The translations under genes and the position numbers were made by a program. From the IMG/VR virus record IMGVR_UViG_3300031963_000147, positions 1-62,080 of that record: a stretch of 62,080 nucleotides of DNA, one strand, 5' to 3'. Shown here piece after piece: positions 9,366 to 59,134 of the stretch. Position 1 is the stretch's first letter. Each line of letters opens with the position of its first letter. The notes under the pieces are model-generated. The model made no database searches and was not told where the DNA came from. It worked only from the letters and a program-made list of their open reading frames with translations. This DNA is from a virus.

Positions 9366-9373
9366 CAAATTTA
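9366..9373 (-). promoter_or_regulatory. Bacteroidota-type -7 box TAAATTTG
   Basis: It matches TAnnTTTG exactly on the minus strand, 19 bases before the ATG of the holin-like gene. Its TAA is the stop codon of the giant polyvalent gene, so promoter and coding end overlap. A lysis-gene promoter is inferred. Confidence 0.45.
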
Positions 9374-18300: not shown

Positions 18301-21300
18301 GCAATGAAGCGCGTTCAATCGGACTGTTTTTAATCAGAGAATTCGGATATAGATACTTGGACACAAGTGCGCTGACTACATCCATGTCAACCCCAGTAAT
18401 ACGGCTGTTGCTCATGGTTGTTTTAGGCATTCCGCCAATAAAGCGACCACTTCCAACAGAGCCCTCCAATATCCGTCCTCCGGTGAATCCAGCAGCGGTC
18501 ACTCCCTCCCACATTGCCCGGATAATCGGCAAAGAGGTGTAGTACGCACTTCGGGTAGAGGACTTGGCTGTTGCCAGTGGGTTTGTCTTGGTCTTTTTGC
18601 CGATTGAATCCAGAAGCGATATGATCCTGCGGGATTCATCATAAAACTGAAGACTTGATTTATTCCACCTTTCACGATCATCATCCAGAAGTATTTCCGA
18701 AAGCGGACCTAATCCATTGTACTTGGAAAGTGCCTCCTTTTGTTCGTCTGTGGCAAACTGATCTGGATTGTCTAGCAGTGAATCAATTATTTCCAATGCA
18801 GCAATATTGTCTTCATACGCCTGCTTTTTGGAGAACGTTTTGTTCGCTGTCCTTTCCCAGTTTTCCGGATAGACAAAGTTCTGCTGAATGTCGGGGTCTA
18901 GTCTGTCAGGCTGAACAAGCTCTGTATTGCCTGTGCCTGCGCCTCCTGTTCCTGCATTGTCGGCAGGTACATCTCCAGGTATTGTTGATAGAGATCCACC
19001 ATTATTTTCATTCGCTTTTCCGCCTCCTGTGGTGCTACCTCGTTCACCTCCTTGCGTTCCTGCTCCGGCATTGATTCCAGTATCAGAGCCACCGGCCCCT
19101 CTACCGTCTTGATTAATTGTTTCTCCAGACTGGTCATTTTGTTCGGCATTAAATTCATATTCATCCACGACGGATTCTGAATCCATCTGTTTTTTCTGCT
19201 CTGGTGTTGCCCCCGTCATTTTGAATGACATATAGGCCGCTTTCATTGCGGGAATAATAGCTTCTCCCATCCTGGCAACAGCGTCTTCAGCTACCTCTGC
19301 AAATGTCAGTATTCCAAGTTCTGCGTATTTGGCAATGATTCTTACGGCTATTTCAAGCTGCTTGGGATTCAGACCTGCGTTGAGGTTGCCCATTTCATTT
19401 CCGAGCTCTCCCCATAAATCATCAAGGTCTTTGTTCTTGATCTTGCTGATTCGCTCTTGGCGCTTGGTTGGTTTCTCCGCCGGTTTTTCTTGTGGTTTTG
19501 GCATTTTGCCAATAACGACGTTTGGCGCGGGTATCCCTGATTGTTCAACGATGTCCTTAATCACTTCCTGCGGTGTCTTTTCGCCAGAAAGAAGATCCTG
19601 AACGTCTTTTACCTCTTGTGAAGGTGAATTTTTATTTATGTAGTCAACAACATACGGGATGGCCTCTTTAGCAAAAATGGTAGCAAGCTCTTTGGATGTT
19701 GGAGCAGGTGATTTTGGAGCTCCCCATCCATACGGCGCCCCCGTTCCTGATATGTTTATTCTCTGGTTCGGACCTACATACTGATCCCGACCCTTTTTTG
19801 TCCTGTCTTCTACTCGGTAGAAAATCTCACTGAGCGTGTAGTTGTCGTATGACCGGTTGTATTCTGGTTCATACTTAAATGCCGCATACAGGGTAAGAGG
19901 TGTGCCTGGAATAGAAAGTTCAACATACACATCACCACCTGCGGGAGCAATGTTTGCTCGAACTCCATTTTTACCAATTTCCCATCCGGTCATTTGGGCA
20001 ATATCCTTCATAAATGAAGTTATTTCCCGCTTGGCCTTTTTGCCAATTTCGTAGCTGGGTATCTCGTGGTCAATGTCGTCTGTTGTATAAACCTCGGTCA
20101 GCTTTTTGATCTTTTTGCCTACCGCGTTTATCTGCGCCTCTATTTTTTCGAGGGCTTCCCGAACTGTTTCTGGCGTTCTAGCAGCTCCTGCCTCTTTGAT
20201 TGCAGATTCTGCATCACTTTCGACAGTCTCGATAGATCGTTCGTCGATTGCTTCTGATTGTTCTTCATTGTCTTGGGTTTCTTGGGTTTCTTCCTCCCTG
20301 ATCGCTGATTTTACCCGACCATAGGTTTCATTGATAAGGTCTACTGCCTCGTCTCCGATAATCTTGCGGACACCTTTTTCGTTGTCGGCAATTTGTTCCT
20401 GAATTTCCTTTATCGCTGCGTCTGGATTCTCTTTGATTCCTTCTTTCCATGCAGTAGCCTGGATTGACTTCGATGGTGAATCAAGTACGAGCTGCGTGAT
20501 CTTGTCTTTGGGAGAAGCGTTTTTGGATTCTTTGCCGGCATTTAGCGCATTCTGAATATTTGCATTTAATTCATCCAAATGATCGGCAAGCGGAGCAAGT
20601 GCCTTTGGTGATTGGCTTTGTGGGGCCGTAGTCAGTGCTTCTGGCGCATACTTTTTAACGTATTCAGTATATACGCCTTCTACAATACGAGCGATTTTTT
20701 GAGCATCGCTTTTTGATGCATTCGCAGGCAGTATGATTCCAACACCAGCGGCAGTAGTTCTGCCTGCTGTTTTGCCCATGATACCAACATGAATTTCCTT
20801 TCTTCCGTCTGCGTACTGATGAATTCGTTCTTTCACAAACACTCCTGCAGTACCGATTTTGTCCCTTTCTCCACCGCGAGCGTCTACTTCAAGCCCAACG
20901 TCGTTGAAATGCAGTTTAGAATCGTTTACATACGGAACAATTTTAACGTCCTTCGTGTTTATGGGCGCTGGATTTTTATTGCCGCTTTCAATCTGTGCTG
21001 CAGGAACCTCTTCTGCCTGTGCTTCTTCTCCTTGGAATTCTTTTTCACCGGCGTTTGCTACGTCAGAAGTAAGAGCGTCACCAATGGCTCCTTCAAGCCT
21101 GGAAGCAAGGTCAATGAATTGCTGAACAAGCGGATTAATGTTGTCCGGAATGTCTTCTTTGTCAACGATGTTTCCTTTTGAATCAACCAAGTTGAATTCT
21201 TCTCCACTCATATCAACTTCGAACTTGTATCCCAGATTGGAAAGTTCATTGTTGATCTCTGCAAGTCTTCTGCCTATTGGCGATGCAGTTCGGAGAATGT

Positions 21301-24300
21301 CTTCGTTGGTGATCTCGTTGGTAGCAGGCGTAGACTTACCTTCTAAAGCAGCAAGCTCCGCGTCGTATTCGGCGTCGGTTGGTAAAACAACTTCAACATC
21401 AGATGTAAATATTTGCGGAAGCGCAGCATTAACATTGTATTCTCCGTTGGCTCTTTTTTCTGTTATTGCTATGCCTGACGTGTTTTCTTCCCATACGTCG
21501 TTTTCATTTAAAAACAACGGTATCAACTGGTAAGATTCTGTTCCCCTTTTCGTCGTTTTTTTTCTGACTATTAAGGCATCTCCATCCTCGTTTTTAAATA
21601 TTGTTCCTTCTGGTATGCTTTCTAAAAATTCAAATTTTTCTTGCGGCGTTGATTTTCTACTAATTATGTCTTTTCTTCTGCTTTCTATATCCGCCTTTTT
21701 ATCTGCCGTGTCGATTGAATCAACATTACCGGCAGACGTGTCGATTTTTTCGCCTGTTTTCGACGTGTCGGGTGTTTTATTCCCTTCAATCTCCCGTGCA
21801 ACAGCAGAAAACGGATTGAACACCGGCTGCGCGATCATAGAAGGTCCCTGCGGATTCACCGGAGCTTTCCCCTCTTCTACTTCTTCGATCTCGGGAATAT
21901 ATCCTTCCTGAACTTGCTGAATGATCTTTGCCTTTTCTTCGTCGCTTTCTACGCTCTCTACCGGGGTATTCATCAATGCTTCTACATCCGGCTTCTCTTC
22001 CGTATTCTCTGAATCAGTTGCCTGCGGCTTAACCGCCGCTTTTGCAGCCTTTCTCTTCTCGAAAAAGCCCTTGATTCCTTCATTCAGATGATTCAGCATA
22101 GTAGCCGCACCCTTGCCAAATGCGGCAATACGAACCCTTTTTGTAGCTACCTGAGCAACTAAATCAGGATTGGTAAATACTTGCTCAGCATCCGCCGTTG
22201 AAAACAGATACTCGCTTCCGTCCGCATACTTGATTGAGAAGAATTCAGGATCCTTTCCATTAATGAAGTCTGCCGCCTGCTGCTGGTAGTCTTTTGCTTG
22301 TTCTTCGAAGACTTTTGCCAATACCGGATCGTCCGCGTACTGCGCTGCCTTAGCAAGTGCTTCATCTGCCCTGGATGAAATCCATGAATAAATCGAAGCA
22401 TCATTCGGGCTCAACTTCAGAGCTTTTGCCTTTTCCTGATATTTCTCAGCCTGAAGTACGTCGGCAATCATGCCGTCACGCTGCGCCTTGTCGATCTGTC
22501 CAGAAGTAAAAAGGTTGTCAATGGCGGCCTTTGTGAATTTAGACCCCTTATTGAATACTGTGTTGTAGACAAACTGGGTAGATTGGCCCTCAATCACATT
22601 GGAAAGAACGTCTTTGGATGCCTGTGCAGTAATGGCGTTTACCATTTCCTGCTTGTTACCGGTAGAATTTACCTGACCGGCCATCCCAAGAATAGCCACC
22701 GGAGCGATCGGCACAAACGTGTCCTGTGCCTGCTTGATAAAGTCACCGAAATTCATAGGACGCGTCCCAACCTTTCCGTCAGTCATGTCCACCATTTCCC
22801 ATGCGTTTCTGCCTTCGGAAATATTCTTCTCTGCGATGTTCTGCAGGGTTTCCTGAATCAATTCAGTTGAAAGTTCGATACCTCCGCCGACAAGCATACG
22901 TCCGCCAACGGTAGGAACCATTGAAAGACCTTTTGAAATAAACGGAAGACCCTCGAAGGCATACGCCCACATAATATCAAGCTGTGAATCAAAGCTCTTC
23001 TGCGCTGCTTCCTTGGCCTTGGCTACATTTCCGCCGGAGCGTTCAAATGCGTCGTTGTATGCGCGGCCAGCAATATCGGCGGATTCAGCAGTGAATCCAG
23101 CAACCGAAGCGGCAAGCATTTGAACCGAAGCGCCCATTCCAAGTCCGCCGGTTGTCATCGCTGCCGTTGTGCTTGCCAAAATGCTTGGCGTCATTCCTCC
23201 TCCAAGCTGTCCGGTCAGCGTCATCAGGTTTTTCAGATCAAAAAGGTCTGAAACTTTGTCGCTCTTCGGCGTGGCAACCATGTTCTTTTGAGCAAGGTAG
23301 TCACCGTACATTTCCAGTTCAGGAATATCCATGGAAGTAGCAAGTGCCTTCAGGCTTCCTCCAAATCCATTCATAAATGACCTTCCAAGCTGCGCGAATG
23401 GAGCCGTGAGAAGACCGGCTTCAAATGCCTGTCTTTCGGTGGCGTCCATAGATGCCATTCTCTCTTCCGCCGCCTGCTTGTAAGCATCCGAATACTTCTG
23501 TGAAAATTCAGCAGCCTTCTCTGGAGACACTTGGTATTCGGCAAGAAACTTCTCCTCGGCCTGCTTAATGCGTGCATCAGCCTGTTTTTTCAGGGCTTCT
23601 GCCGCTTGCTTGTATTGGTTCTGATACCGGGAATTGATCTCGTTCAGCTTTGTTGTGGCCTGATCGTATAGTGTCGAACTCGCTTTCTGAATTTCCGCGA
23701 TCTTGGCGTCACCTTCATTTTTGATCTGGTCAAATGTCGTTTTGTACTGATCCAACGGAATAGCACCGGCCTGAAATTGCTTGTTCAGCTCTTCCAGTCT
23801 GGCATTGTACTCCGCGTTCAGCGCATTTGCCTGTTGCTGCAGTTGCTCCTTTGCCTTTTTCTGTTGCTCAAATACTGGCAGTGCTTCTGATTCAGCCTGC
23901 TTCTGTATTTGATTAAAAAGAGCGCCGGTGGCGGCATCATATTTCAGCCTCTCCGCTTCGTCGGTAGTGAATTTCGCATCCATGTCGGCATTCACTTCTT
24001 TTTTGAACGCCTTTTCATACGGACTGAAAATTTCTTTTGCCCTCGGCTCGATCATCTTCATGTCTACCGTGGCGATCATGGTGTTGTAAAGCAACTTCTT
24101 GAAGCTGCTGTTTTCACCAAGCCCATACATGGCTGCCTGTCTGGTGGCGTATTCGTCCACAACCTCTGGATTCACAACGACGTGCCCGCTTTTGGACTTC
24201 ATGGTGAATTTGCCGACGTCGTTTCCGATCATGCTCTCAGCAAGTTCGTTGACAATAGGGCCCATCTTCTTTGTGTTGGATTCAGCCCATGTCTTTGCCG

Positions 24301-24907
24301 GCGTAACCAAACGATCAATCTCCTCGTTGGCCTTGCGGATCTGTTCTCTCTGCTCGTTTACGGTAGGCGCCCATGCTCCGGGAACACCGGCATAGGAAAT
24401 AAACCTTTCCACTTCCTTCTGGCCTTTTGCCTCGAAGTTTGTCTTCAGGCTCATAGCGTTACTAGCGCCTATCTGAGCATTTTCGTACTGGTTGGCAAGC
24501 GCCTTAATTTCAGCCTGCTTCTGCTGGTATTGCTGTTCGCTGAATTTCCCCAGTTCATTCCTTCCCTCGGCTTTGTTTCGCGCAACAATCTTGTCCGCAT
24601 GACTAGCAATTTCTTCTCCACTCGGAATAGAAGGCTTTTGCGGCGCGTTTGAACCTTGACCAGACCCCGCCGCGCTGCCTGGTTCCGCCCCCTTTAGCTT
24701 TTCGACAAATGATTCGGGGGTGTGCGTGAATTTGTCCCCGTAGGCGTCTTTCATTACGCCGTATATCTTCTTTTGATATTCCGGATCATTGCTGATCTTT
24801 TCATCAAATGATTCAGGTGTATGGGTGAATTTGTCTCCATACGCTTCTTTCATAATACCATAAAGTTTTTGGCTGTATGGCTGTCCGGTTTCTACCTTTT
24901 TTCCCAT
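9371..24907 (-). CDS. Giant polyvalent protein: adenine methylase, SNF2 helicase and zincin (5,178 aa)
   Basis: One uninterrupted ORF of 5,178 codons, a quarter of the window. Order of parts: two N-terminal repeats (about 12-38 and 45-71, each with AYGDKFTHTPESF); coiled coils; hydrophobic stretches near 490-600 and 728-743, possibly for membrane passage; a long linker; an N6-adenine methylase (GRILEGSVGSGRF, catalytic NIPF at 2213-2216); an SNF2-type helicase (GAGKT with K2840, DESQ box, SGTPISNS, MEQRNGRGIRQGN); an HEAAH zinc peptidase site (H3842-H3846); coiled coils; and a C-terminal domain of the large polyvalent-associated type (DPRSSDFAKIKVGDTRVDPW). DarB-like and other polyvalent proteins are packaged and injected to protect DNA from restriction. 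Two internal-virion-like genes precede it. Anti-restriction is inferred. Confidence 0.9.
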   Translation of the reverse strand: MGKKVETGQPYSQKLYGIMKEAYGDKFTHTPESFDEKISNDPEYQKKIYGVMKDAYGDKFTHTPESFVEKLKGAEPGSAAGSGQGSNAPQKPSIPSGEEIASHADKIVARNKAEGRNELGKFSEQQYQQKQAEIKALANQYENAQIGASNAMSLKTNFEAKGQKEVERFISYAGVPGAWAPTVNEQREQIRKANEEIDRLVTPAKTWAESNTKKMGPIVNELAESMIGNDVGKFTMKSKSGHVVVNPEVVDEYATRQAAMYGLGENSSFKKLLYNTMIATVDMKMIEPRAKEIFSPYEKAFKKEVNADMDAKFTTDEAERLKYDAATGALFNQIQKQAESEALPVFEQQKKAKEQLQQQANALNAEYNARLEELNKQFQAGAIPLDQYKTTFDQIKNEGDAKIAEIQKASSTLYDQATTKLNEINSRYQNQYKQAAEALKKQADARIKQAEEKFLAEYQVSPEKAAEFSQKYSDAYKQAAEERMASMDATERQAFEAGLLTAPFAQLGRSFMNGFGGSLKALATSMDIPELEMYGDYLAQKNMVATPKSDKVSDLFDLKNLMTLTGQLGGGMTPSILASTTAAMTTGGLGMGASVQMLAASVAGFTAESADIAGRAYNDAFERSGGNVAKAKEAAQKSFDSQLDIMWAYAFEGLPFISKGLSMVPTVGGRMLVGGGIELSTELIQETLQNIAEKNISEGRNAWEMVDMTDGKVGTRPMNFGDFIKQAQDTFVPIAPVAILGMAGQVNSTGNKQEMVNAITAQASKDVLSNVIEGQSTQFVYNTVFNKGSKFTKAAIDNLFTSGQIDKAQRDGMIADVLQAEKYQEKAKALKLSPNDASIYSWISSRADEALAKAAQYADDPVLAKVFEEQAKDYQQQAADFINGKDPEFFSIKYADGSEYLFSTADAEQVFTNPDLVAQVATKRVRIAAFGKGAATMLNHLNEGIKGFFEKRKAAKAAVKPQATDSENTEEKPDVEALMNTPVESVESDEEKAKIIQQVQEGYIPEIEEVEEGKAPVNPQGPSMIAQPVFNPFSAVAREIEGNKTPDTSKTGEKIDTSAGNVDSIDTADKKADIESRRKDIISRKSTPQEKFEFLESIPEGTIFKNEDGDALIVRKKTTKRGTESYQLIPLFLNENDVWEENTSGIAITEKRANGEYNVNAALPQIFTSDVEVVLPTDAEYDAELAALEGKSTPATNEITNEDILRTASPIGRRLAEINNELSNLGYKFEVDMSGEEFNLVDSKGNIVDKEDIPDNINPLVQQFIDLASRLEGAIGDALTSDVANAGEKEFQGEEAQAEEVPAAQIESGNKNPAPINTKDVKIVPYVNDSKLHFNDVGLEVDARGGERDKIGTAGVFVKERIHQYADGRKEIHVGIMGKTAGRTTAAGVGIILPANASKSDAQKIARIVEGVYTEYVKKYAPEALTTAPQSQSPKALAPLADHLDELNANIQNALNAGKESKNASPKDKITQLVLDSPSKSIQATAWKEGIKENPDAAIKEIQEQIADNEKGVRKIIGDEAVDLINETYGRVKSAIREEETQETQDNEEQSEAIDERSIETVESDAESAIKEAGAARTPETVREALEKIEAQINAVGKKIKKLTEVYTTDDIDHEIPSYEIGKKAKREITSFMKDIAQMTGWEIGKNGVRANIAPAGGDVYVELSIPGTPLTLYAAFKYEPEYNRSYDNYTLSEIFYRVEDRTKKGRDQYVGPNQRINISGTGAPYGWGAPKSPAPTSKELATIFAKEAIPYVVDYINKNSPSQEVKDVQDLLSGEKTPQEVIKDIVEQSGIPAPNVVIGKMPKPQEKPAEKPTKRQERISKIKNKDLDDLWGELGNEMGNLNAGLNPKQLEIAVRIIAKYAELGILTFAEVAEDAVARMGEAIIPAMKAAYMSFKMTGATPEQKKQMDSESVVDEYEFNAEQNDQSGETINQDGRGAGGSDTGINAGAGTQGGERGSTTGGGKANENNGGSLSTIPGDVPADNAGTGGAGTGNTELVQPDRLDPDIQQNFVYPENWERTANKTFSKKQAYEDNIAALEIIDSLLDNPDQFATDEQKEALSKYNGLGPLSEILLDDDRERWNKSSLQFYDESRRIISLLDSIGKKTKTNPLATAKSSTRSAYYTSLPIIRAMWEGVTAAGFTGGRILEGSVGSGRFIGGMPKTTMSNSRITGVDMDVVSALVSKYLYPNSLIKNSPIERASLPSNSFDLFISNIPFGKQDIYDPVLDKKGGLWKASQKKLHTYFFAKAIDVVRPGGYIAILTTANTLDTRENQSTRDLILQTCEFVGAVRLGEQAFNADAGTQVVTDIILLRKRQEPIGLPSGEDHPISKIVKELAPHNKPDRPKQFIEYNEYFAKNKENVFGEKYLAGGLYSEDRGYTLTGAPEPEQVAAKLQELASKMPIQPYKHKEKEVDEILQMTPDGRMVSGGVIKKGGKYFTVIDYDKLQGVHNVVEITRLPPDKDRQTLDDFINLKNLYFDILSKDRASEDASAQRVEILDLLNSFVKRVKVQNITSLLSGRSVISQIIQKDPDAFAVLGLIRPDGKFADVVYKSAGADRPAFERTNNPADAIAYSINAFGHVNVPFVREVMDLSSDEEAVKAMGDLVFETPDGSVIEASEYLSGNVREKLDQANEWRKISSKYDRNAEALSKVIPDPIPAEDITFTLGAGWIPVNYYQSFLDVVFGSGKVKVTYSKATDKYNIVSSVVGGEYEALGEHGTKKQVGDVIEAAFTKKIGPYFMTNSRDDSKTPLPVLEQSVRDKVEKLQDAFSQLVVTDPTFKKELAEIYNRVFNGTVIKEYSGSTLTFPGLQGIELRPHQKDAVMLLVQKMGGMVDHIVGAGKTLVLGSAAIKMKQMGLVNKPVICTMKSVIPGMYKELTQAYPGLKILAPKETDFSAANRQRFFSQVANNDWDLVIISHENLGTLTLPPDFEEKYIQNEIEELMDAIAEIKGNSSGERDMFSKKQLKALQEKIENMTTKLNKLQDKGEYATKINMGDMGLDMLFIDESQEFKNLAFHTGMRNVSGLGNPAGSNKAANLKMICRYLQYIHSGDKGVCFASGTPISNSLTELYNIFQFIRPSLLKKLGMNSIDQFINTFGIVSATMEKNVAGVIKSKTRLNKFVNVTELATMYTEVSDIRAVHNLQLPRPKIKGGKPEVVLIKQSESQRAITDAIYEASRTGSVGPLLAVGIDVPDSWEKSLGINLTTLGSKASIDPRMVFPKMPEDGGKIQVAADKVYQHYIDSQDIKGTQLIFSDLGVPKDKAAPIGKRVYDEMVERMGEESIAEYSGADAIWKLKDRAQIKEALVTVFEMSPSEAESVIFQAEDTESFSVYAEMKKKLVRMGIPENEIAFIHDAPTKAKKEELFLKVNNGEVRVLIGSTKKMGTGVNVQRRVVAMHHLDAQWRPSDMEQRNGRGIRQGNMNEEVAIYYYGTEETIDAYRFGLLAKKQAGIDSFRAGGRGVREMDFEDGESMTLSEIAAAISGDTRLLDIEKLGGQIRKFENRIESAKRANALRDERIKNEKSSLNSYNRWIDISKEVAEIAKSTINNEGDRKIIEITVDENGKEKQKEITVPNFPVFTATVSGKQFDTKSTEQSKEFYKEIANRIKSLLDRGSIEVVKIGEIGGIEIVTSAPSNDKGYRSLYLEYKGKTIKTIVRSGREFEWWTILRAISSLRENVLEDINYYERVKSGIEKNIAEYEAQPDLVADPKDIEGLKQAKEKRDAILKELEEEEKAREERERNQGQNANPEEDLDDAAAEYQKATGDVATITDEKLRAQIDKVVSALKNVDPGARVVIHNDAESYASALEAMGEDPANADTSAAYDPISGEIHLNVNKIGDTTLFHEAAHPIMAIMIEMNPELLDGLYSQIESDPTLSKFVAFGSRYADPNQQKKEAVIEFLAAVAAGKLDGYKNTPLWDKIKAFFNSLIKFFTGKDTFEINLDNVSELKTFAGKFAEAVRTGTPVANSYQKVVRGGAEYQLSPEEQMMDKVRAAVVGAYNTGYSREDIIRLINEEPTVKQVIESQGTIQDFIDAALTVGPDPVESTKEQPVSGSVDYDFNISGSGDVREASVAGRAMRGMAEDALKQSIEKMGFDQYHVRTAYEADIIAQDFIDSVGMATAFKEAVVSRLVPDDIGAIVIAKAMMNPDMLGDTKAVPDLLRILSERGTNAGRGVNIYKYIYENYDIGFDIEKKFSEYRTASGDSNIPELVEKKWREYEEEMNSLREEIKQLAADKERLDAEVAISIIKENIARETSGRKLPQKEREKISDRIRKAKLARPDVFNSASPAVIAWDTAVEIVATTFDTTQSLAQAVKKGIDYLQNTEWYKSLNPEKKTEAIQKFADYYQEEGVPEPYMTDEGNLVIPNSFLRSLVAEGYETIEDITEQVRLVVDEAFPDYKFSEREVRDAITGYGRTIEMASDDISKALRKAKNIGRIISGLEDVQTGLSPLRSGLQREPTDPDIRLKMKELREAMKDLPVDQEASERQLKTALDAIKTRLTNAIQDIEREIETGMRIEKSKRGVAYDQTVKDLKERLAELRKERDALFGEEMSQSRRINAAIRLLDYAIESTQKALDSNDLKFKSKEKVSTPEIEAKREVLKALQARLKEARKEAGVIEAQRLANAKKNTEKLIQEYERRLREKDYAPKKRTPLVEDTELARKRARLRELKDKVDQDILDASLRNFKNSEARWNAFNEAWNLPKTVRASLEFSPILIQGGPLTMKYALTQQGELLQAIKQLGIAAANESTIKRIQNMVKDLPWYTEAMVAGLELSEFGGDISKAEEGFVFGALGHKIYDVPVGGAAKAIFGERVGERVKELNPMKVTERGASAYLNYLRIREYERGRKMLLARGYTIQNNKREFENLAKVINTYTGRGAVPGSPKYKAALTKGLSYLLFSAKNWSSVIKQTTPIGFIYFLQKTDMESGRPKLSVAQRVALENWLATYGTSAAFVLLFRSLFGGDDDDDKDGVSVSLDPRSSDFAKIKVGDTRVDPWGGRSQMLTFQARMYTQEIVNQYGETVEMGEYNEETGRANTNWLRLTYKLFQGKLHPTAAAILEKGMAEKNKYGQMIDEYGNPVLLKDQLTELFVPMYIASVVENYQEQSTELASVFTLIGSVGVSTNTYGGYTDMLKKETLKLEGKYLYENGGEEVPEGVKNMLQKKAEIIVKKKMRDGERRRRAQ

Positions 24908-46633: not shown

Positions 46634-46892
46634 TCTCTTCTGTGATGATTCCAATCAGCCCCAATTCATCCTGAAACAGCAGAAAATCTGCTCCGTCGAT
46701 CTGAATTTCCTGTCCTGTTCCCGATGGAAACAGAACGCGGTCTCCTACCTTGTAGTCATTGACTTCCGGACCAACACTGTAAACGTGCCCCAGACTTGGA
46801 GCCTTTTTAGATCCGTCCGGAATGTCAATTCCTATTTCACTGAGTGTTGGCTGAGGTGTGACCAGCACTTTTTTTCCTTTTACCTGTATCAT
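46605..46892 (-). CDS. groES: GroES-like co-chaperonin (Cpn10)
   Basis: The 95-residue protein keeps the Cpn10 order: KGKKVLVTPQPT, a mobile-loop-like segment SEIGIDIPDGSKK, LGHVYSVGPEVNDYKVGDRVLF and an end DELGLIGIITEE. The mobile loop retains the short hydrophobic IGIDI that binds the GroEL apical domain. The length matches bacterial GroES (~97). It starts in an ATGA overlap with groEL, giving a phage groEL-groES operon in reversed order. It would cap the phage-encoded chaperonin. Confidence 0.85.
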   Translation of the reverse strand: MIQVKGKKVLVTPQPTLSEIGIDIPDGSKKAPSLGHVYSVGPEVNDYKVGDRVLFPSGTGQEIQIDGADFLLFQDELGLIGIITEENGQEPVQKN

Positions 46893-48469
46893 TTTTGATC
46901 GTTGTTTACAATAAGGGTGTCTGTGATTAAGAAAAGCGCCGCTACCGATGCTGCATTCTGCAAAGCTACTCGAAGCACTTTTGCTGGGTCAATAATTCCC
47001 AGTGAAGTGAGGTCTGAAACAAACCTTTTGGAGCGCATGTCGTAACCTTCATTCATTGCTGAAGGAAAACGCGGCGTATCTATTCCTCCGTTTGAAGTAT
47101 TCTTCATGTACGGAACCGCAAGAGCATTGTACACGATGTTTCTTCCCATGGATTCATCCACAGACAAATTGTTTTCTGATTGAAGGCATTCACGAAGAAT
47201 GAAGAACGTTGAACCTCCGCCTGGAAGATACCCTTCTTCAAATGCCGCCCGTGTAGCATTGATCGCGTCGTCTACGCGGTCAATTTTTTCGTTCAGTTCA
47301 CTACTGGTCTGTCCGCCGACTTTGAGAACGGCTACCTTACCAGACAAACGGGAAACCCGGTTTCTCATTTGATGATGTGTAGGAGAATCCCCGTCAATTT
47401 CAGCCATTTGCCGGCGAATACCGTTGATTCTTTCATCAGGATTTCCAGCACCTTCAAAAAGAATGGTGTTTTTCTCAGAAACCGTGACCTTTTTGACAAA
47501 TCCAAGTTTCTTGATGTCCTTTTGCGCCCGTTCTCCGGAATCTTTTGAATAGAAGTGTGCACCGGTGTACGCGCAAATATCCATGGCGATTTCCTTTCTC
47601 AAACTACCGTATTCCGGAAGCATCACTACGGATGCACGGATCAATCCTTTCAGGTGGTTGCCCAGAACTGTTGCCAGGGCCTCTCCTTCCATTCCGGAAC
47701 AAAAGAAGATGATTGGCTTGGGCTGCACTTCTTTCTCAGCAGCTTCTTTGATAACCGGCGTCAGGATGGATTCAATGTCAACGAATGAGTTGATGATTGA
47801 ATCTGTGACAAAAACGTAACAGTTTTCGGCTTCAAACGTTTGCTTTTGCTCGTTGTTTACCAGTTGAAAATGGAACCATCCGGACCCTACTTTCATGCCG
47901 GAAACAATTTCGGTGTACGTTTTTGTCGTTTCAGACGGCTCGTAAGCGACTTCTCCGCCCTTACCAACCGACCAGAACGCCTTTCCGATCAATTCCCCAA
48001 GCTCCCGATCATTGTTTGCTGATATGGTGGCAATATCAATCAGTTGTTTTTCCGTTTCGATCTGCATAGATGATTCAGAAATAGCCTTCACCACACGATC
48101 AACCGCATCTTCAATTCCGGACTTGACAAATACCGGTGAAGCACCTTCAGAGATCATCTTAAATCCTTCTTCAATGATGGCGTGTGTCAGCACGCAAGCC
48201 GTTGTGGTTCCGTCTCCGGCCATGTTCACTGTTTTTACGGCTGCTTCTTTAATGATAAGCGCTCCTTGATTTTCCGCGTGGTCCGCAAGCTCGATATGAC
48301 GAGCAACAGTCACCCCGTCTTTTGTGTTTTTGGGAACGCCGGCAGGCATTTCTATTACCACGTTTCTTCCTGCAGCACCAAGCGTGCTACCAACGGCAGT
48401 GGCTACCGTTTTCATTCCGGAGAACAGCTTTTTTTTGGCTTCTACGGAGAACAATACTGTTTTGCTCAT
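46889..48469 (-). CDS. groEL: Phage-encoded GroEL chaperonin (Cpn60)
   Basis: The 526-residue protein aligns by eye with GroEL along its length. It keeps TLGAAGRN at 29-36, the ATP-site DGVTVA at 51-56, AGDGTTTA at 84-91, GGG at 417-419 and RVDDAINATRAA, where D401 corresponds to the catalytic D398 of E. coli GroEL. The apical domain is much more diverged (GSGWFHFQLVNN in place of the usual GYLSPYF region; PEYGSLRKE in place of PGFGDRRK). The Gly-Gly-Met tail is absent. It would fold phage proteins, probably together with the adjacent GroES-type proteins. Confidence 0.94.
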   Translation of the reverse strand: MSKTVLFSVEAKKKLFSGMKTVATAVGSTLGAAGRNVVIEMPAGVPKNTKDGVTVARHIELADHAENQGALIIKEAAVKTVNMAGDGTTTACVLTHAIIEEGFKMISEGASPVFVKSGIEDAVDRVVKAISESSMQIETEKQLIDIATISANNDRELGELIGKAFWSVGKGGEVAYEPSETTKTYTEIVSGMKVGSGWFHFQLVNNEQKQTFEAENCYVFVTDSIINSFVDIESILTPVIKEAAEKEVQPKPIIFFCSGMEGEALATVLGNHLKGLIRASVVMLPEYGSLRKEIAMDICAYTGAHFYSKDSGERAQKDIKKLGFVKKVTVSEKNTILFEGAGNPDERINGIRRQMAEIDGDSPTHHQMRNRVSRLSGKVAVLKVGGQTSSELNEKIDRVDDAINATRAAFEEGYLPGGGSTFFILRECLQSENNLSVDESMGRNIVYNALAVPYMKNTSNGGIDTPRFPSAMNEGYDMRSKRFVSDLTSLGIIDPAKVLRVALQNAASVAALFLITDTLIVNNDQK

Positions 48470-48472
48470 AAT

Positions 48473-49423
48473 TTATCTGATGGTTTTTGATTTACTGAAT
48501 GAAACTGATTCCTCCTCGATGGACAAAAGAGCGTATTCCTTTTTGAAATAGTAATACTCAGTGTCCAGGGTCCTGATCGCGTCGGGTTCCAAAATTATTG
48601 GAGGAATGGCGGGATTTATCACAAGCCTTTCTCCTTTTACAAACCCGTCTGGCGTGCTGCAGGCAGACCGGTAAATGTCAATTCCATGCCTGCGGGCACG
48701 ATCATTTGGAGCCCAAAGCAGTTTTTTGATCTCGTTTTCTTCCTTGGTGCACACCATGTACCCGTTCAGTGGAACCAGACCAGAAGAAGTGTTTTTGCAG
48801 ATCAATTCTTTGTAAGGAATGGTCACATACATGTTTCCGTCTACATCGTAAAAAAATGAATCAAAAATGTAGCTTCCTTCCCGGATTGTGTTGATGACGT
48901 ATTCACTGAAAAACACCTGATCGCCTTTTTTTATGTCAACCCAAGTGGATTTATCGAAATAAGAAGACACGATCATGTCTTTCTCGTTGTATGCGGATCT
49001 TGGTGCTTTTACCACAATCCCTTGGCGAACGGTGACGCGTGCATTTCCTTCGGTAGAATTCAGTTTCCCGATATTCATCCCGTTTTTGGATACTTCTGCG
49101 GTGACGTATGGAATTTTTATCAATACCCACCCGTCGTGCATCAGCATGTGGGATGCTTTACTTGGGTTTCCGCGAAACATCTTGTAGCAAAAGCGCTCAG
49201 GAATAACCGCATGTCTTCCGTTGTCGATCAAATTGAGCGACCCAAGCAAAAACATGACGTGATCTCCATACATGCACTGGCAGTCTCTTCCGGACATCAC
49301 TACACGGCCAAAATGAGGTGTTTTTACCTTGTCTTGCGGAATATAAAGCCCTGATTCACCTATTTCCTGAGTAGGAGCAACTGCAATTACAAGAGAATCT
49401 CTGGATGGATTTACAAAACTCAT
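48473..49423 (-). CDS. Fusion of three GroES-like domains (316 aa)
   Basis: The protein reads as three consecutive Cpn10-like units. Unit 1 (about 1-88) has SLVIAVAPTQ, the mobile-loop-like GESGLYIPQ and FGRVVMSGRDCQCMYGDHVMF. Unit 2 (about 92-212) has DGWVLIKIPYVTAEVSKNGM, VRQGIVVKAP, KKGDQVFF and VTIPYKELIC. Unit 3 (about 214-305) has LVPLNGYMVCTKEE, WAPNDRARRHGIDIY, VKGERLVINP and YFKKEYALLSIEE. Each ends in the strand that closes a Cpn10 barrel. It starts just before groEL (3-base gap), so it probably works on the same chaperonin. Similarity in units 2 and 3 is weaker and is my inference. Confidence 0.68.
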   Translation of the reverse strand: MSFVNPSRDSLVIAVAPTQEIGESGLYIPQDKVKTPHFGRVVMSGRDCQCMYGDHVMFLLGSLNLIDNGRHAVIPERFCYKMFRGNPSKASHMLMHDGWVLIKIPYVTAEVSKNGMNIGKLNSTEGNARVTVRQGIVVKAPRSAYNEKDMIVSSYFDKSTWVDIKKGDQVFFSEYVINTIREGSYIFDSFFYDVDGNMYVTIPYKELICKNTSSGLVPLNGYMVCTKEENEIKKLLWAPNDRARRHGIDIYRSACSTPDGFVKGERLVINPAIPPIILEPDAIRTLDTEYYYFKKEYALLSIEEESVSFSKSKTIR

Positions 49424-53085: not shown

Positions 53086-53114
53086 AAAAGAGCCCCAAAA
53101 AGGCTCTTTTTTTT
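53086..53114 (+). terminator. Rho-independent terminator
   Basis: AAAAGAGCC / GGCTCTTTT with a 7-base loop and a T8 run, 28 bases after the stop of the 135-residue gene. Confidence 0.85.
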
Positions 53115-54334: not shown

Positions 54335-54526
54335 ATGTTCAAAACTTCTTCAAACAAAATCGCATCAGCCGCCTTCTGTGTGGCTGTTTTCTGCGTGGCC
54401 TGCTTCGTAGGCATTATGTGCTACGGCATGGCGACAGACGTTCGCATGAATTACCCGATGGGGTATTCCCTCACCGCAGGCGCTTCGCTCCTGTTGGTTG
54501 TTCTGTATTCTATCCGTCCTCGTTAA
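54335..54526 (+). CDS. Small membrane protein with two TM helices (63 aa)
   Basis: MFKTSSNKIASAAFCV opens a first transmembrane helix (about 11-31) and a second is at about 43-60 (YSLTAGASLLLVVLYSIRP). Both termini are short. It is the first gene after the origin-like tract, and its product is likely in the inner membrane. Superinfection exclusion or takeover roles are possible; nothing specific is visible. Confidence 0.7.
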   Translation: MFKTSSNKIASAAFCVAVFCVACFVGIMCYGMATDVRMNYPMGYSLTAGASLLLVVLYSIRPR

Positions 54527-54544
54527 CTCTCTAAATCAAGCACA

Positions 54545-55000
54545 ATGAACACACAAGGACAGCAAATCTTTTTCGTCACCATCTTCAATGAGGACGGCAC
54601 ACAGAACACTGTGACATGCACTAGGAATGAATTCGCTAAAGTTGCATGGGACAACACGCTGTGCGAGCGCCGCTACACTGTGAGCAATGGCAATGAGCAG
54701 GATAATTACCCTCAATCAATCATGGAACGCATAGTGAACGACGGCTGCGTAGATGCTGCTACCATGAATTTCGGATGCGACGCTATTGCCGACCTGTATA
54801 GCATGATCGAGACTATTGGCATGGGATTCCACCCCGACACACCATTCGCCGACTATGTTACATACACCGGAAATCCTACCTTCACTACTGAAGAAGTTGA
54901 GAGGCTGAGCGCCATGCTTCAGGGCTGCTTCGATGAATTAGGCGACGATGTTTACAGCATCTGTATTAGCCTGAACGATCTAATCAACGCGGCAGAATAA
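54545..55000 (+). CDS. Hypothetical protein (151 aa)
   Basis: An acidic 151-residue protein with a beta-rich start (QQIFFVTIFNEDGTQNTVTC) and a helical C-terminal half. Cys residues are scattered, not in a zinc pattern. No family recognised. The CACAATG start context resembles other genes in this cluster. Confidence 0.6.
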   Translation: MNTQGQQIFFVTIFNEDGTQNTVTCTRNEFAKVAWDNTLCERRYTVSNGNEQDNYPQSIMERIVNDGCVDAATMNFGCDAIADLYSMIETIGMGFHPDTPFADYVTYTGNPTFTTEEVERLSAMLQGCFDELGDDVYSICISLNDLINAAE

Positions 55001-55019
55001 TCCCCTAAACCACGTACTA

Positions 55020-55340
55020 ATGAGCAGAATCGACCAATTCGAAGATATGTTAGAGACATGGGTTTCTAACCACGCAGCCGACATGCTTGGCTGTGAGATC
55101 CTCAAATCAACGCTTCCTGAGACCAATCCTGAGCAGACCGATGATATGGCGCTTACAATAGTTTCGGTGACTGTTCCTGAATCAGAGATCAATCGCATTA
55201 ACGACGCAATGGACGCTGATTATAACGGGTTTTGCGCCTTGTTCATTGAGGCGGAAGAGTTTCATTTTATGTGGGAAAAGTCGGTTTTAATAGATACTGA
55301 ATCCTGCACTATCACATTCGACGTTCAATATTTCATCTAA
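55020..55340 (+). CDS. Acidic hypothetical protein (106 aa)
   Basis: The protein is acidic, with a helical N-terminus (DQFEDMLETWVSNHAADMLG) and a beta-rich end. It has no recognisable motif. It starts 20 bases after the previous stop and is probably co-transcribed. Function unknown. Confidence 0.6.
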   Translation: MSRIDQFEDMLETWVSNHAADMLGCEILKSTLPETNPEQTDDMALTIVSVTVPESEINRINDAMDADYNGFCALFIEAEEFHFMWEKSVLIDTESCTITFDVQYFI

Positions 55341-55353
55341 CACACAACACAAC

Positions 55354-55632
55354 ATGTACACACAAGCACAATTTTTTCTCGGTGAATCAGCCATTTATCA
55401 GGGCATTCACAACAGCACGCAGTCATGGAATGGCTTTGCTTGCCCCGCATTCGATCTGCCTACCGTTAAGCAGATGATGAGAGACGGGTATATTCAGGGC
55501 ATTGAAACAGCAATGGTTGATGGCGTTGAGCGCGTCTACTTCGAATCGGTTGAGACCTGCCCCATACAGCACGAAGGAGTGAATTATTACCATATCGGAT
55601 TCGACGAATTGACATGGGAAATTGAAGAATAG
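55354..55632 (+). CDS. Hypothetical protein (92 aa)
   Basis: A mixed alpha/beta protein with ESAIYQGIHNSTQSWNGFAC near the N-terminus and an acidic C-terminus. No family recognised. It precedes the first of three related RNA hairpins. Confidence 0.6.
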   Translation: MYTQAQFFLGESAIYQGIHNSTQSWNGFACPAFDLPTVKQMMRDGYIQGIETAMVDGVERVYFESVETCPIQHEGVNYYHIGFDELTWEIEE

Positions 55633-55649
55633 CGCCTCCCACATTCAGG

Positions 55650-55695
55650 CCGCCGCCCCGCGTTTAACTGTGACAAGTTGCGCGGGGATTGGCGG
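55650..55695 (+). ncRNA. Structured leader hairpin, copy A
   Basis: Outer stem CCGCC/GGCGG, a one-base 5' bulge against ATT on the 3' side, inner stem CCCCGCG/CGCGGGG, and an apical AACT/AGTT stem. It ends 15 bases before the ATG of the DUF3560-like gene. Confidence 0.7.
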
Positions 55696-55710
55696 TTAAA
55701 AACACACACA

Positions 55711-56763
55711 ATGAATACTACTATTAATCAAGAAAAAGGCTTTGAAAACGCCTATTACATTCTCAATTCCGACAACAAGGTAGAGCTGCATTTGAGTGGG
55801 TTAGAATCCTACCGCTCTTTATCTGAAACAGCCAAGACAGCCGTAAAACGAGCGTTTGTATGGGGTAGACAGCGCGGCGCTTGGGTGTCACGCTCAAAAG
55901 ACAGTGGAATACCGTATTCAATGAAGCACTACGGAATTCCTTTCCACGGAGAGCAAGAGCGCACAACCTACGAGGATGCGCGTGAGCGCAGAATAGAGAA
56001 GGCTGAACATAAGGCTGAACGCCACGAAGAATGGGCGGCGGCACGCGAAAGAAACGCCGTAAGCCTTCAGTCTGAATTCAACAAACTGCGTAAAGACTGG
56101 GCGTGGCTTACACAGCCAAACGTAAACACTTCGGGCGGCCGATCATTCACCAATAGTCGCAATAGCGTTATAGCAAGATACGACAAAGGCTTTGAGGAAA
56201 TGAAAGCCGCACAAAGACATGAAGAAAGAGCCGCTCACTTTCTTAAAATCGCATCTGAATCAGAACTGAAGTCGGAGAGTTATCTTATAAATCGGGTCAA
56301 AGAGAATGAGAAAAACGTGCGTGAATTTGCTCGGTTTACCGAAAACTATTCGGACAGACTGGAAACTATTGACGAGCAAAGCGACGATTGGAAGATTTGG
56401 TTAAAGGCTCGGATGAATTTTTACCAAACATGTTTTGAAAAACTAGAGTTCTTCATTTCTGCTTTGCGCGAATTGACGGCGCAGAAAAAAGAGGCGGGAG
56501 TTATGTGTGCGGAAGATATTCAGGAAAAGGTAGCAGGAAACGTAAAAGGAGATGTTAAGAAGTACCTGAAGGAAAAATACGGGGTGGACTTGGTTTCTTT
56601 TTCAAAAGCCTTTGGAGTAGGCGTAAATACATACTACTACATCAAGACGAAACAGCCGCTTCCGCTGGAATACCATTCGGGATGGGCTTCTGACTGCTCC
56701 GCGCAGATACGTCTTGCAAAAATTATAGCTGACATGGACGCGTTCAATCAGCAAAAAGCGTAA
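55711..56763 (+). CDS. DUF3560-like protein (350 aa)
   Basis: The N-terminal half has LHLSGLESYRSLSETAKTAV, FVWGRQRGAWVSRSKD and GIPYSMKHYGIPFHGEQER, the pattern of DUF3560 proteins on plasmids and phages, followed by a long coiled coil of Glu/Arg-rich helices (RERRIEKAEHKAERHEEWAA). The last ~80 residues may be a helical DNA-binding region (DLVSFSKAFGVGVNTYYYIK). The function of DUF3560 is unknown. The ATG at 55711 is used, right after RNA copy A; the longer frame runs through that RNA. Confidence 0.78.
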   Translation: MNTTINQEKGFENAYYILNSDNKVELHLSGLESYRSLSETAKTAVKRAFVWGRQRGAWVSRSKDSGIPYSMKHYGIPFHGEQERTTYEDARERRIEKAEHKAERHEEWAAARERNAVSLQSEFNKLRKDWAWLTQPNVNTSGGRSFTNSRNSVIARYDKGFEEMKAAQRHEERAAHFLKIASESELKSESYLINRVKENEKNVREFARFTENYSDRLETIDEQSDDWKIWLKARMNFYQTCFEKLEFFISALRELTAQKKEAGVMCAEDIQEKVAGNVKGDVKKYLKEKYGVDLVSFSKAFGVGVNTYYYIKTKQPLPLEYHSGWASDCSAQIRLAKIIADMDAFNQQKA

Positions 56764-56778
56764 TACGTTTGATTAAGG

Positions 56779-56824
56779 CCGCCGCCCCGCTGTTAGGTTG
56801 AAACCTGAAGCGGGGATTTGGCGG
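56779..56824 (+). ncRNA. Structured leader hairpin, copy B
   Basis: Outer CCGCC/GGCGG, one-base bulge against ATTT, inner CCCCGC/GCGGGG, and an apical AGGT/ACCT stem. The apical sequence differs from copy A but pairing is kept. It ends 26 bases before the ATG at 56851. Confidence 0.7.
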
Positions 56825-56850
56825 CAGAAACAAACAAATACACAAACACA

Positions 56851-57489
56851 ATGGCAACAAAAACACACCGCATGAGCATCGACGACTTGGCAGATGCTTA
56901 TCACCTCCAGTTAATCCACGCAGCAACCGAAAAAACCGTTCGCGGGTTCGGGCTTCCCTCCATGAATTCACCGAAGCATGTCATCGGCTTCAAGTCCTAC
57001 GAGCAGGCCGTGCAGTTTGTGAAGGAATGGGGCGGCGTCATATCGCTCTATGAACGCAGAGACGGAGCCAGCATGTACACGAACAGAGGGGAGCAGAACC
57101 GCGCACTGACGTATGAAGATTACCTTCAGGACGCTGGCGACAATTACCGCGTGTACGCGAATACCGCAGAAGACATTCAGGCGCGGAAAGAACATCTTCT
57201 CATATTGCTTGAAGAAGAAGACTTCGCGGGCGTATCAGATTACATTCTGCAGGCTGAAGAACTTGTGCGTGCCGCTGAAAATCTTCCTGACGAGGACTTC
57301 GTTTGCATCGCCAAGTATTCGCCGAGTAAATCAGATGCCGGAAACAATTTGTTTCCATGGGTATTTCATGTCTACATGCCACACGAGACAATGACCTACA
57401 AAGAAGACGTTACCACATACTATGTAGGCGTTGATCTTACCGACGTAGAGTTTGATGAATTCGGCGAAGAAGAGGAGGCAGAAGTATGA
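56851..57489 (+). CDS. Acidic hypothetical protein (212 aa)
   Basis: The 212-residue product has a helical middle (ARKEHLLILLEEEDFAGVSD) and an Asp/Glu-rich end (DEFGEEEEAEV). An ATG at 56851 following the CACAAACACA stretch is preferred to an upstream TTG inside RNA copy B. No family recognised; DNA mimicry is conceivable from the acidity but not demonstrated. Confidence 0.62.
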   Translation: MATKTHRMSIDDLADAYHLQLIHAATEKTVRGFGLPSMNSPKHVIGFKSYEQAVQFVKEWGGVISLYERRDGASMYTNRGEQNRALTYEDYLQDAGDNYRVYANTAEDIQARKEHLLILLEEEDFAGVSDYILQAEELVRAAENLPDEDFVCIAKYSPSKSDAGNNLFPWVFHVYMPHETMTYKEDVTTYYVGVDLTDVEFDEFGEEEEAEV

Positions 57490-57558
57490 CCAAAACAATC
57501 GACTGTTCAAACCCTAACCATTCAATAGTTTCAATAACCGTTTATCTCAATTAATCCG

Positions 57559-57702
57559 ATGAAAAAGAAACCCATATCATTCCTGCCCGAATCAGATCCG
57601 CGCAACAATACCATTGCGATGATCGAGGGCATAATGTTCCTTGCAATGGTGGCCGGAGCTGCCATTGCCCTGATCGGTTGCCTTATCTGGCAGCCATCGT
57701 AA
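57559..57702 (+). CDS. Very small membrane protein (47 aa)
   Basis: MKKKPISFLPESDPRNN is followed by one strong transmembrane helix (about 25-45, FLAMVAGAAIALIGCLIW). It sits between the acidic protein and RNA copy C. The start context and uninterrupted hydrophobic helix support it as real. Function unknown. Confidence 0.5.
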   Translation: MKKKPISFLPESDPRNNTIAMIEGIMFLAMVAGAAIALIGCLIWQPS

Positions 57703-57723
57703 GACTGTTTGTGTGTTAATCTG

Positions 57724-57766
57724 CACCGCCCCGCTGCCTGGCTGATACCAAGCGCGGGGATTGGTG
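57724..57766 (+). ncRNA. Structured hairpin, copy C
   Basis: Outer stem CACC/GGTG replaces CCGCC/GGCGG of copies A and B with pairing kept. The bulge is again one base against ATT; the inner stem CCCCGC/GCGGGG is identical, and the apical part is TGG/CCA. The next gene start is about 195 bases away. Confidence 0.65.
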
Positions 57767-57786
57767 TATAGAGACGACGGTATAAA

Positions 57787-57916
57787 TCAATGAATTAACC
57801 CTAATTAGCCGTTATCCTATAAATTAGCCGGATAGCTCATGAAGCAGGGAAAGCCTAGCATAACCACATCCGTATGAACGGACATTAAGTTATGGAAGGC
57901 AGCCGTAATTCATTGA
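57787..57916 (+). other. Candidate structured element closed by an 11-bp stem
   Basis: TCAATGAATTA (57787-57797) pairs perfectly with TAATTCATTGA (57906-57916). Inside, TCCGT-ATGA-ACGGA and TATCC/GGATA can form further hairpins, and AATTAGCCG occurs twice. The 258-bp gap 57703-57960 has no gene. It may be an untranslated leader or ncRNA for the downstream cluster. Confidence 0.45.
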
Positions 57917-57960
57917 ATAACCGTAAATTGTGCCTATAAACCTCAATAAATTAACAGAAA

Positions 57961-58242
57961 ATGGAAACATCGCTGACTTTCACTGCTCGAAAAAAGCATT
58001 CGATGGTAGTTTATGAAGGAGAAATTGAATTTGACAAGGTATATTCCTACGAACTGGAAGCGAAGGTATCTTTAGACGGTCAACTAGCCGAAGCTAGTTT
58101 ATACGTCCGGAATGTGTGGGAAAAAGGCAGCGATCCGGAAGAGGATTCGGTAGGGGATGCTGTTTTCAAAATTGAGGAGGCAATAAAACGTGCGTTTATC
58201 AAGGCAAGAGTTAAAGAAGCAACACAAGCCGCGCAGCCATGA
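57961..58242 (+). CDS. Hypothetical protein (93 aa)
   Basis: A beta-rich start (YEGEIEFDKVYSYELEAKVS) and a helical Lys/Arg C-terminus (FKIEEAIKRAFIKARVKEAT). No family recognised. The stop overlaps the next start by ATGA, and it leads a tight cluster of small genes. Confidence 0.6.
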   Translation: METSLTFTARKKHSMVVYEGEIEFDKVYSYELEAKVSLDGQLAEASLYVRNVWEKGSDPEEDSVGDAVFKIEEAIKRAFIKARVKEATQAAQP

Positions 58243-58484
58243 GCCTGAATCATCTCTTTTGGAAACCTGAATGTCCGATATGCGGCGAAGAGTATTCGGG
58301 CGATCATTGTCCAGGATGTTACGTCCGGTGCGAAGGATGCTTGAATTACTTCAACCGCGAAGACCTGCACCCGAACATTCAGACGGCAACTTACTTTTTA
58401 AAATTCTGCTGCGATAGATGCCTGAGAGAAGAGATAGAAGAATTAAATAACCCAAACTGCGAATACAATGAAAGCAACCAATGA
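58239..58484 (+). CDS. Zinc-ribbon-type protein (81 aa)
   Basis: Three to four Cys pairs are visible: PECPICGEEY, HCPGC, RCEGC and FCCDRC. This looks like tandem zinc ribbons. Coupled by ATGA to the gene before. Likely binds nucleic acid or protein; no family named. Confidence 0.7.
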   Translation: MSLNHLFWKPECPICGEEYSGDHCPGCYVRCEGCLNYFNREDLHPNIQTATYFLKFCCDRCLREEIEELNNPNCEYNESNQ

Positions 58485-58671
58485 GTTCAGAAAGTTTGCC
58501 ACAGATGAGCAAATTTTAGAATGTCTCATTTTATTTGAGACTCGTAAAATGGACGCGGCTAAACTATTGTCTGCATACGTCGCGCCTAAGTGGGGAATAA
58601 CCACACTAGAAGCCGTTGCCTTTCTTAAGAAAATGGCAGAAGAATTAAATCAACCAACATCAATAATTTAA
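58468..58671 (+). CDS. Small helical hypothetical protein (67 aa)
   Basis: A helical 67-residue protein with no motif, overlapping the preceding gene by 17 bases. Its 3' end lies in a 25-base sequence that is repeated after the next gene. Confidence 0.55.
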   Translation: MKATNEFRKFATDEQILECLILFETRKMDAAKLLSAYVAPKWGITTLEAVAFLKKMAEELNQPTSII

Positions 58672-58678
58672 GACAATG
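58654..58678 (+). repeat. 25-bp direct repeat at a gene junction, copy 1
   Basis: It runs from CCAACATC through AATTTAAG to the ATG of the next gene, and is identical to 58852-58876. The two copies cover stop codons in different frames. Confidence 0.7.
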
Positions 58679-58864
58679 AGCCATACGATTGAAGTAAAAC
58701 ATATTAATAAAGATAGAATCAGTATTCTTGGAAAAGAATATTGCTCAGAAGAATATTTGATAGAAATGATGCGAAGGGAATACTTAAGAGGCAGAGAAGA
58801 AGGAAGTCGTATTCATATTGCTCAAATACAATCTTGCTCAAATTGTGCAACCCAACATCAATAA
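58676..58864 (+). CDS. Small hypothetical protein (62 aa)
   Basis: A short basic protein (MMRREYLRGREEGSRIHI) ending with CSNCATQHQ. Its start and end both lie in copies of the same 25-base junction repeat, as if the gene had been inserted as a module. No family recognised. Confidence 0.55.
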   Translation: MSHTIEVKHINKDRISILGKEYCSEEYLIEMMRREYLRGREEGSRIHIAQIQSCSNCATQHQ

Positions 58865-58876
58865 TTTAAGACAATG
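58852..58876 (+). repeat. 25-bp direct repeat at a gene junction, copy 2
   Basis: Identical to 58654-58678, ending in the ATG at 58874. Confidence 0.7.
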
Positions 58877-59134
58877 GAAATTCAATTTAACCCGAAAGAA
58901 GACAGTGGTAGCTTTAATTGGGAAACAGATTATTATCATCCCGATAACGCATTCACTATGCGGGATTTTTTAGACAACCATTTGCCGCCTGATTTTGAAG
59001 TGATACTAGATGATGGAAGTTATGCAGAAGTACAACATCACGCCACGGATGCTATTTTCTGTATTGCCGCAAAAGGCAACGGAGATTGTTTTCATCACGT
59101 AGTTGAGTGGCACATAATTTCACGTAACCATTAA
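58874..59134 (+). CDS. Hypothetical protein (86 aa)
   Basis: An acidic protein with the segment FTMRDFLDNHLPPDFEVILD and a His-containing end. No family recognised. It starts at the ATG of the repeated junction. Confidence 0.58.
   Translation: MEIQFNPKEDSGSFNWETDYYHPDNAFTMRDFLDNHLPPDFEVILDDGSYAEVQHHATDAIFCIAAKGNGDCFHHVVEWHIISRNH

Follow-up and report, generated by a model that had tools for sequence, protein, structure and literature searches.

The RNase III hairpins of phage T7, of which R1.1 is one, lie between consecutive phage genes of one polycistronic transcript and contain an asymmetric internal loop. In the T4-like phages, stem-loops known as PeSLs (promoter early stem-loops) were reportedly located at module boundaries by Arbiol in 2010 and by Comeau in 2014, and the title of the latter work is said to describe them as composite promoter-terminator motifs. 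The host RNase III cuts the T7 early region at five sites, and the R1.1 substrate, a 60-nt RNA, undergoes a single cut that yields products of 47 and 13 nt (PMC4858673). The PeSLs are presented as repeated intergenic stem-loops that border exchanged gene modules (PMC4503421). A third kind of phage hairpin is the translational operator, such as that of T4 gene 43, which lies about 40 bases upstream of the start codon (PMC3014915).

The element described in the present work occurs three times in the window, which is the whole stretch of DNA that was analysed, a 62,080-base IMG/VR virus record that encodes a DnaB helicase, a terminase and a GroEL-like protein. Within the phage collection the terminase is related at 26% identity to proteins of Flavobacterium elemo phages and, more weakly, to proteins of Cellulophaga, Tenacibaculum and Maribacter phages, and the host of the virus is therefore likely to belong to the Bacteroidota. 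No IMG/VR relatives of the window's own terminase or of the 350-aa protein downstream of copy 1 were found with the peptide patterns used. The GroEL-like gene (phrog_5725, E 3e-121; 46889-48469, minus strand) adjoins a weakly GroES-like gene (phrog_3188; 48473-49423, minus strand), and GroEL is also encoded by Cellulophaga phage phi38:1; a single open reading frame of 5178 codons (9371-24907, minus strand) takes up a quarter of the 62-kb genome. All three hairpins are situated inside a rightward cluster of small genes without assigned function (Table 1). Neither the 350-aa nor the 212-aa protein of this cluster has a PHROGs or Pfam match, and the former has no phage relative. The neighbouring genes were called early in the earlier note, a label that can be inferred from their layout only.

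Table 1. Features of the hairpin locus in window coordinates, with scores under covariance model R1 (see text) and folding z-scores.
Feature	Position	Strand	Structure or context	R1 score (bits)	Fold z-score
Hairpin copy 1	55648..55697	+	outer stem 55648-55655/55690-55697, inner stem CCCCGC/GCGGGG, apical stem AACT/AGTT	37.5	-3.9
A-rich leader, copy 1 to start codon of ORF 55711-56763	55698..55710	+	from sequence		
350-aa protein, function unassigned	55711..56763	+	downstream of copy 1		
Hairpin copy 2	56778..56825	+	outer stem GGCCGCC.../GGCGGC..., inner stem, apical stem AGGT/ACCT	43.9	-5.7
A-rich leader, copy 2 to start codon of ORF 56851-57489	56826..56850	+	from sequence		
212-aa protein, function unassigned	56851..57489	+	downstream of copy 2		
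Hairpin copy 3	57722..57768	+	outer stem TGCACC/GGTGTA, inner stem, apical stem TGG/CCA	31.5	-3.8
150-nt structured stretch, multi-branched, apparently non-coding	57776..57925	+	directly 3' of copy 3, before ATG 57961		-4.9

The earlier note had reported one architecture in three copies, composed of an outer stem, an inner stem, a G opposite ATT(T) and three different apical stems, and this description holds in every part, with pairing that extends slightly further than was noted. It had also placed the copies in front of genes, which is correct for copy 1 (15 nt past the stop of ORF 55354-55632 and 13 nt before ATG 55711) and for copy 2 (14 nt past stop 56763 and 25 nt before ATG 56851), but not for copy 3, which lies 19 nt past the stop of a 47-aa ORF (57559-57702) and leads into a structured stretch, the next ATG being that at 57961. 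A-rich leaders similar to those behind copies 1 and 2 also trail hairpin copies in other phages. The pattern CCCCGC-N3..25-GCGGGG occurs exactly three times in the window, whereas in shuffled sequences it averages 0.02 occurrences and never exceeds 1. When 60-nt folds from both strands of the entire window are ranked by stability, copy 2 is first and copy 1 fourth. By structure alone, matches are not rare: the plus strand has 6, against 2.9 in shuffles, and the structure-only search was rejected as not discriminating. Taken by themselves, the three window copies are weak evidence of covariation, and the case is carried by their sequence together with the wider family.

The structured stretch that follows copy 3 has an 11-bp closing stem (TCAATGAATTA/TAATTCATTGA) and inner arms of the form GCCT..AGGC. 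It has no match in Rfam and no relative in phages or in the loci compared, and it may be a small RNA of the phage or a further leader. A Bacteroidota -7-type promoter box, TACGTTTG, occurs at 56764-56771 (plus strand), before copy 2 only, and is unenriched before the other copies.

The wider family was collected by scans of IMG/VR in which chance matches in G+C-rich coding DNA were set aside. The clear set that results comes mostly from low-G+C phage contigs and has the consensus 5'-CCRCCG-CCCC-stem/loop-GGGG-AUU(U)-GGYGG-UA. A search with the covariance model R1, which was built from 27 copies, returns 55 copies in 43 stretches, and the element is present in about 40 further phage records, which form about 24 groups that are not closely related at the protein level. 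There are at most five candidate matches per record, and several records have two or three copies between successive genes. The search of other phages that the earlier note suggested yielded many further copies, and its remark that no named family shows this pattern is borne out by Rfam 15, which gives no match at gathering score in the window and none at E<=5 for positions 54500-59000. The carriers encode varied tailed-phage proteins, among them terminases and portal proteins of several PHROGs families, a major head protein and various helicases; no gene family is common to more than four of the 24 carrier groups, in contigs which are fragments. Since no common phage gene is seen, the partner of the element, if it has one, is probably the host's.

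The element occurs in none of 395 Bacteroidota genomes, for which reason an origin as a host-derived cellular RNA element was rejected, and in none of 19 cultured Bacteroidota phage genomes; BLASTN of the short element against phage and plasmid collections, a method nearly blind at such length, gave no match. Among 84,980 species genomes there are ten pattern matches, of which one looks genuine (L131), on a contig that has a terminase and is binned with a Peregrinibacteria MAG; the other nine were discarded because the flanking stem is missing, because they lie inside apparent coding sequence, or both. The 43-kb contig C119 (genome G039, a Candidatus Peregrinibacteria MAG), which has a terminase gene, carries two copies (L181 7938-7982, minus strand, and L182 2004-2046, plus strand); it is either phage DNA that was binned in error or the sequence of a phage with an unexpected host. 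Sites such as L054 11718, L057 3447 and L078 1085, with the core CGCCCCGC..GCGGGGATTTT, fit the short pattern too and were left out as ordinary terminators or chance matches. Pairing antisense to host rRNA was also rejected as an explanation, because TACCRCCAAATCC is found in only 14 of 61 genomes and rRNA would be universal. The hairpin is a phage element, found so far only in uncultured phages, and it is a real, uncatalogued RNA element that constitutes a new sequence family.

Selection on an RNA structure must be separated from the similarity that copies share by relatedness. In alignment A1 (27 sequences) the covariation score is 0.224, compared with 0.102 in shuffled alignments, none of 500 shuffles reaches it, and it collapses when the partner is slid by one column. 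When relatedness is removed by taking one copy per unrelated group (n=22), 81% of cells are paired, against 72% in shuffles, and 32 cells are doubly changed, where shuffles average 12.4 and reach 22 at most; pairing and compensatory change both exceed all 2000 shuffles. The folded structure is under selection, as the earlier note had maintained, with inner and outer stems that vary while the complement is kept. The inner stem had been called invariant, which it is not, since the forms CCCCGC, CCCCCCG, CCCCGATA, CCCCAGYAC, CCCCGG and CCCGACG all occur with their complements. The outer stems include CCACC/GGTGG, CCGCC/GGCGG and CCCTC/GAGGG, in addition to TGCACC/GGTGTA in the window. The prospect that the copies would prove to be recent mobile repeats with random apical loops does not hold overall, because from group to group the apical parts covary and remain paired. 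Among the related phages of a single group, copies are near-identical and travel with gene modules.

The two arms of the outer stem are not conserved alike. Conservation of the 3' arm (GGYGGUA) goes beyond what the 5' arm requires, in part through search bias, and the longer segment GGGGAUUUGGYGGUA is kept even where the 5' arm varies. Some 5' arms (CCAAA, CACCAA and CCATCAAC) find their partners in an unchanged 3' arm by a shift of register. In an energy test of non-canonical 5' arms the individual results are weak, and for 25 of 27 the pairing is better than that of the median random arm. The persistence of the 3' arm would suit a reading in line with the protein-binding site that the earlier note had raised as a possibility, namely that the hairpin is the operator of a regulatory RNA-binding protein which would read the G/AUU(U) loop and the 3' arm and would repress or activate the downstream genes; the two or three copies before successive genes would then form a small regulon.

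Most copies were gathered by patterns that demanded CCCC, GGGG and ATT, and the invariance of those bases therefore cannot be claimed. Because of this bias a search was made via the downstream protein family A3, and invariance was checked in the resulting protein-anchored set together with the model-found copies. At the 56 junctions before the A3 family, 13 have the studied hairpin, 14 have a different hairpin and 29 have neither. The first bulge base in the 13 hairpins is A in 6, T in 6 and C in 1, and the stem of variant L245 is paired throughout and lacks an internal loop. The ATT bulge is therefore common and not essential, and it is no invariant recognition feature. The different hairpin has the form GGCGRCCC-GAAA-GGGTCGCC, lies 20-60 nt before the anchored gene and is unrelated in sequence to the studied element (L214, L219-L222, L230-L232, L244, L247, L250, L252, L256 and L259). 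Given the variable bulge base and the other hairpin, or none, at the same junction, a dedicated protein-binding bulge is unlikely. The carriers, moreover, share no phage gene that could encode the protein, as far as a search limited by fragment contigs can tell, and a binding site for a phage-encoded protein loses ground on both counts. The known translational operators resemble the element in being hairpins upstream of a start codon; they differ from it in that they overlap the ribosome-binding site of one gene and answer to a known phage protein, whereas the studied element precedes many unrelated genes whose carriers have no common protein. An operator is the least probable of the readings considered here.

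The position of the element relative to genes is highly regular. For 46 of the 55 copies, a stop codon precedes at no more than 60 nt and an ATG follows at no more than 60 nt, both on the same strand; this context is found for none of the 55 on the opposite strand and for 6.6% of random positions. The median distance from stop codon to element is 12 nt (quartiles 10-15), and that from element to ATG is 19 nt (quartiles 14-23). The genes on either side are diverse, small and mostly without assigned function. Promoter motifs upstream of the copies, of Bacteroidota as well as sigma-70 type, are at background level (TAnnTTTG in 3 of 55, against 5%; the full -33/-7 motif in 0 of 55), phage-specific promoters being outside the motifs used, and in the window itself sigma-70-like sites are fewer than in shuffles; a promoter-associated element was rejected on the strength of the motif counts. 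With an ATG so close behind, the downstream gene would usually be read from an upstream promoter, and the hairpin would be contained within the message.

A hairpin in this position might also reduce transcription. An intrinsic terminator of the classical kind was rejected, since there is no T-run: five T in a row occur in only 1 of 55 copies, and none of the three window copies is in the window's terminator list. What can be entertained instead is a leaky intrinsic terminator, or a pause or attenuation site, in which the G+C hairpin and the short NUUU would lower onward transcription and not stop it. The element is like intrinsic terminators in having a strong G+C-rich stem followed by a few U, and certain U-rich variants in related junctions do look terminator-like (CGGGGGG-TTTT-GG in L228, L240, L241, L245, L246 and L248; GGGG-TTTTT in L187), L245 even having a complementary A-tract on its 5' side, as bidirectional terminators do. 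The U-stretch of the studied element, however, is of 3-4 bases broken by GG, with a conserved stem beyond it and a location inside operons. The outer 3' arm, which is conserved and covaries, lies past the U-stretch, so that a terminated RNA would lack it; terminator-like sites of the window itself, for example at 53086-53110 and 36946, have proper T-runs; and at most copies there is no space for a downstream promoter. A leaky terminator or pause site is unlikely, although the U-rich variants leave it some probability.

The boundaries of similarity between phages bear on a different possibility. Phages that have the same hairpin and downstream gene often have unrelated upstream genes, and their similarity sets in where the inner stem begins at its base or immediately past the upstream stop codon. 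The element therefore appears to move with the downstream gene, although the likeness of all copies to one another hides the true cross-over point. These module boundaries, and the presence of several near-identical copies per record, are what would be seen if the element were a joint at the DNA level, i.e. a short island of shared sequence for the recombination of modules, as proposed for the PeSLs, with the fold secondary. Such a joint accounts for the repeats within groups and not for the compensatory changes between groups, which are needless for homology-driven exchange and would reduce it; the uniform orientation of every copy relative to both genes also speaks against it, and the hairpin is not required for the shuffling, which occurs at these junctions in its absence too. 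A DNA joint is very doubtful on this evidence. The element resembles the PeSLs in being a stem-loop at the boundaries of shuffled modules, and it differs from them in that no early promoter coupled to it is seen among Bacteroidota and sigma-70-type motifs and that it shows no enrichment of promoters or T-runs. The T7 RNase III hairpins offer a comparable layout, since the studied copies likewise lie between cistrons of a predicted read-through transcript, as judged from the co-directional genes at 46 of 55 copies and the lack of a promoter motif. The likeness is one of layout and of the asymmetric internal loop; no sequence relation is known, and the copies here have about 12-19 bp in all. By the tests run, the studied element is a member of neither the T7 RNase III sites nor the PeSLs.

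The explanation that best accommodates these results, to which a probability of about 0.52 is assigned, is that the element is a cis-acting hairpin between the cistrons of polycistronic phage mRNAs that acts post-transcriptionally and works with host machinery. The hairpin would be transcribed as part of a read-through message and would fold just 3' of the stop codon of one gene and just 5' of the A-rich ribosome landing site of the next. There it might mark or protect an mRNA end, through processing by a host nuclease or as a stability barrier, or it might insulate the translation of one gene from that of the other and hold the leader open, or both. The action on the mRNA, the choice among processing, stability and insulation, and the use of a host factor are all putative. 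The distances of about 13 nt from the stop to the first pair and of about 20 nt from the last pair to the ATG would place the hairpin between a ribosome that is terminating and one that is initiating, a reading that rests on general knowledge of the ribosome footprint.

The replacement of the element by another hairpin at one junction is as expected of a structural spacer and speaks for a hairpin acting between cistrons. Several observations count against this explanation: 29 of the 56 junctions before one gene family lack a hairpin, which is dispensable there; with 12-13 bp in all, the short copies seem undersized as RNase III substrates; no gene directly follows copy 3; and the additional conservation of the 3' arm, which a plain spacer does not explain, hints at sequence-specific recognition. 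Such recognition would be central if the element were a phage-specific module whose conserved 3' arm, GGGGAUUUGGYGGUA, captured a host factor, be it RNA polymerase (by analogy with the cis-acting antitermination RNAs), an RNase or the ribosome, and which had spread laterally among unrelated phages as a portable expression part without need of a phage protein. This reading is quite unlikely.

Descriptions of regulatory RNA elements from Bacteroidota phages are few so far, and the present one is easily searched for with covariance model R1. Bacteroidota ribosomes are described as working without Shine-Dalgarno pairing (PMC9976891), and the element sits exactly between genes in the packed operons of such bacteria. 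If the hairpin between cistrons does set mRNA ends or insulate translation, it would provide a handle on the expression of neighbouring genes in these phages, as well as a ready-made part for bicistronic constructs. Its spread over unrelated phages suggests that RNA elements, besides genes, move between unrelated phages.
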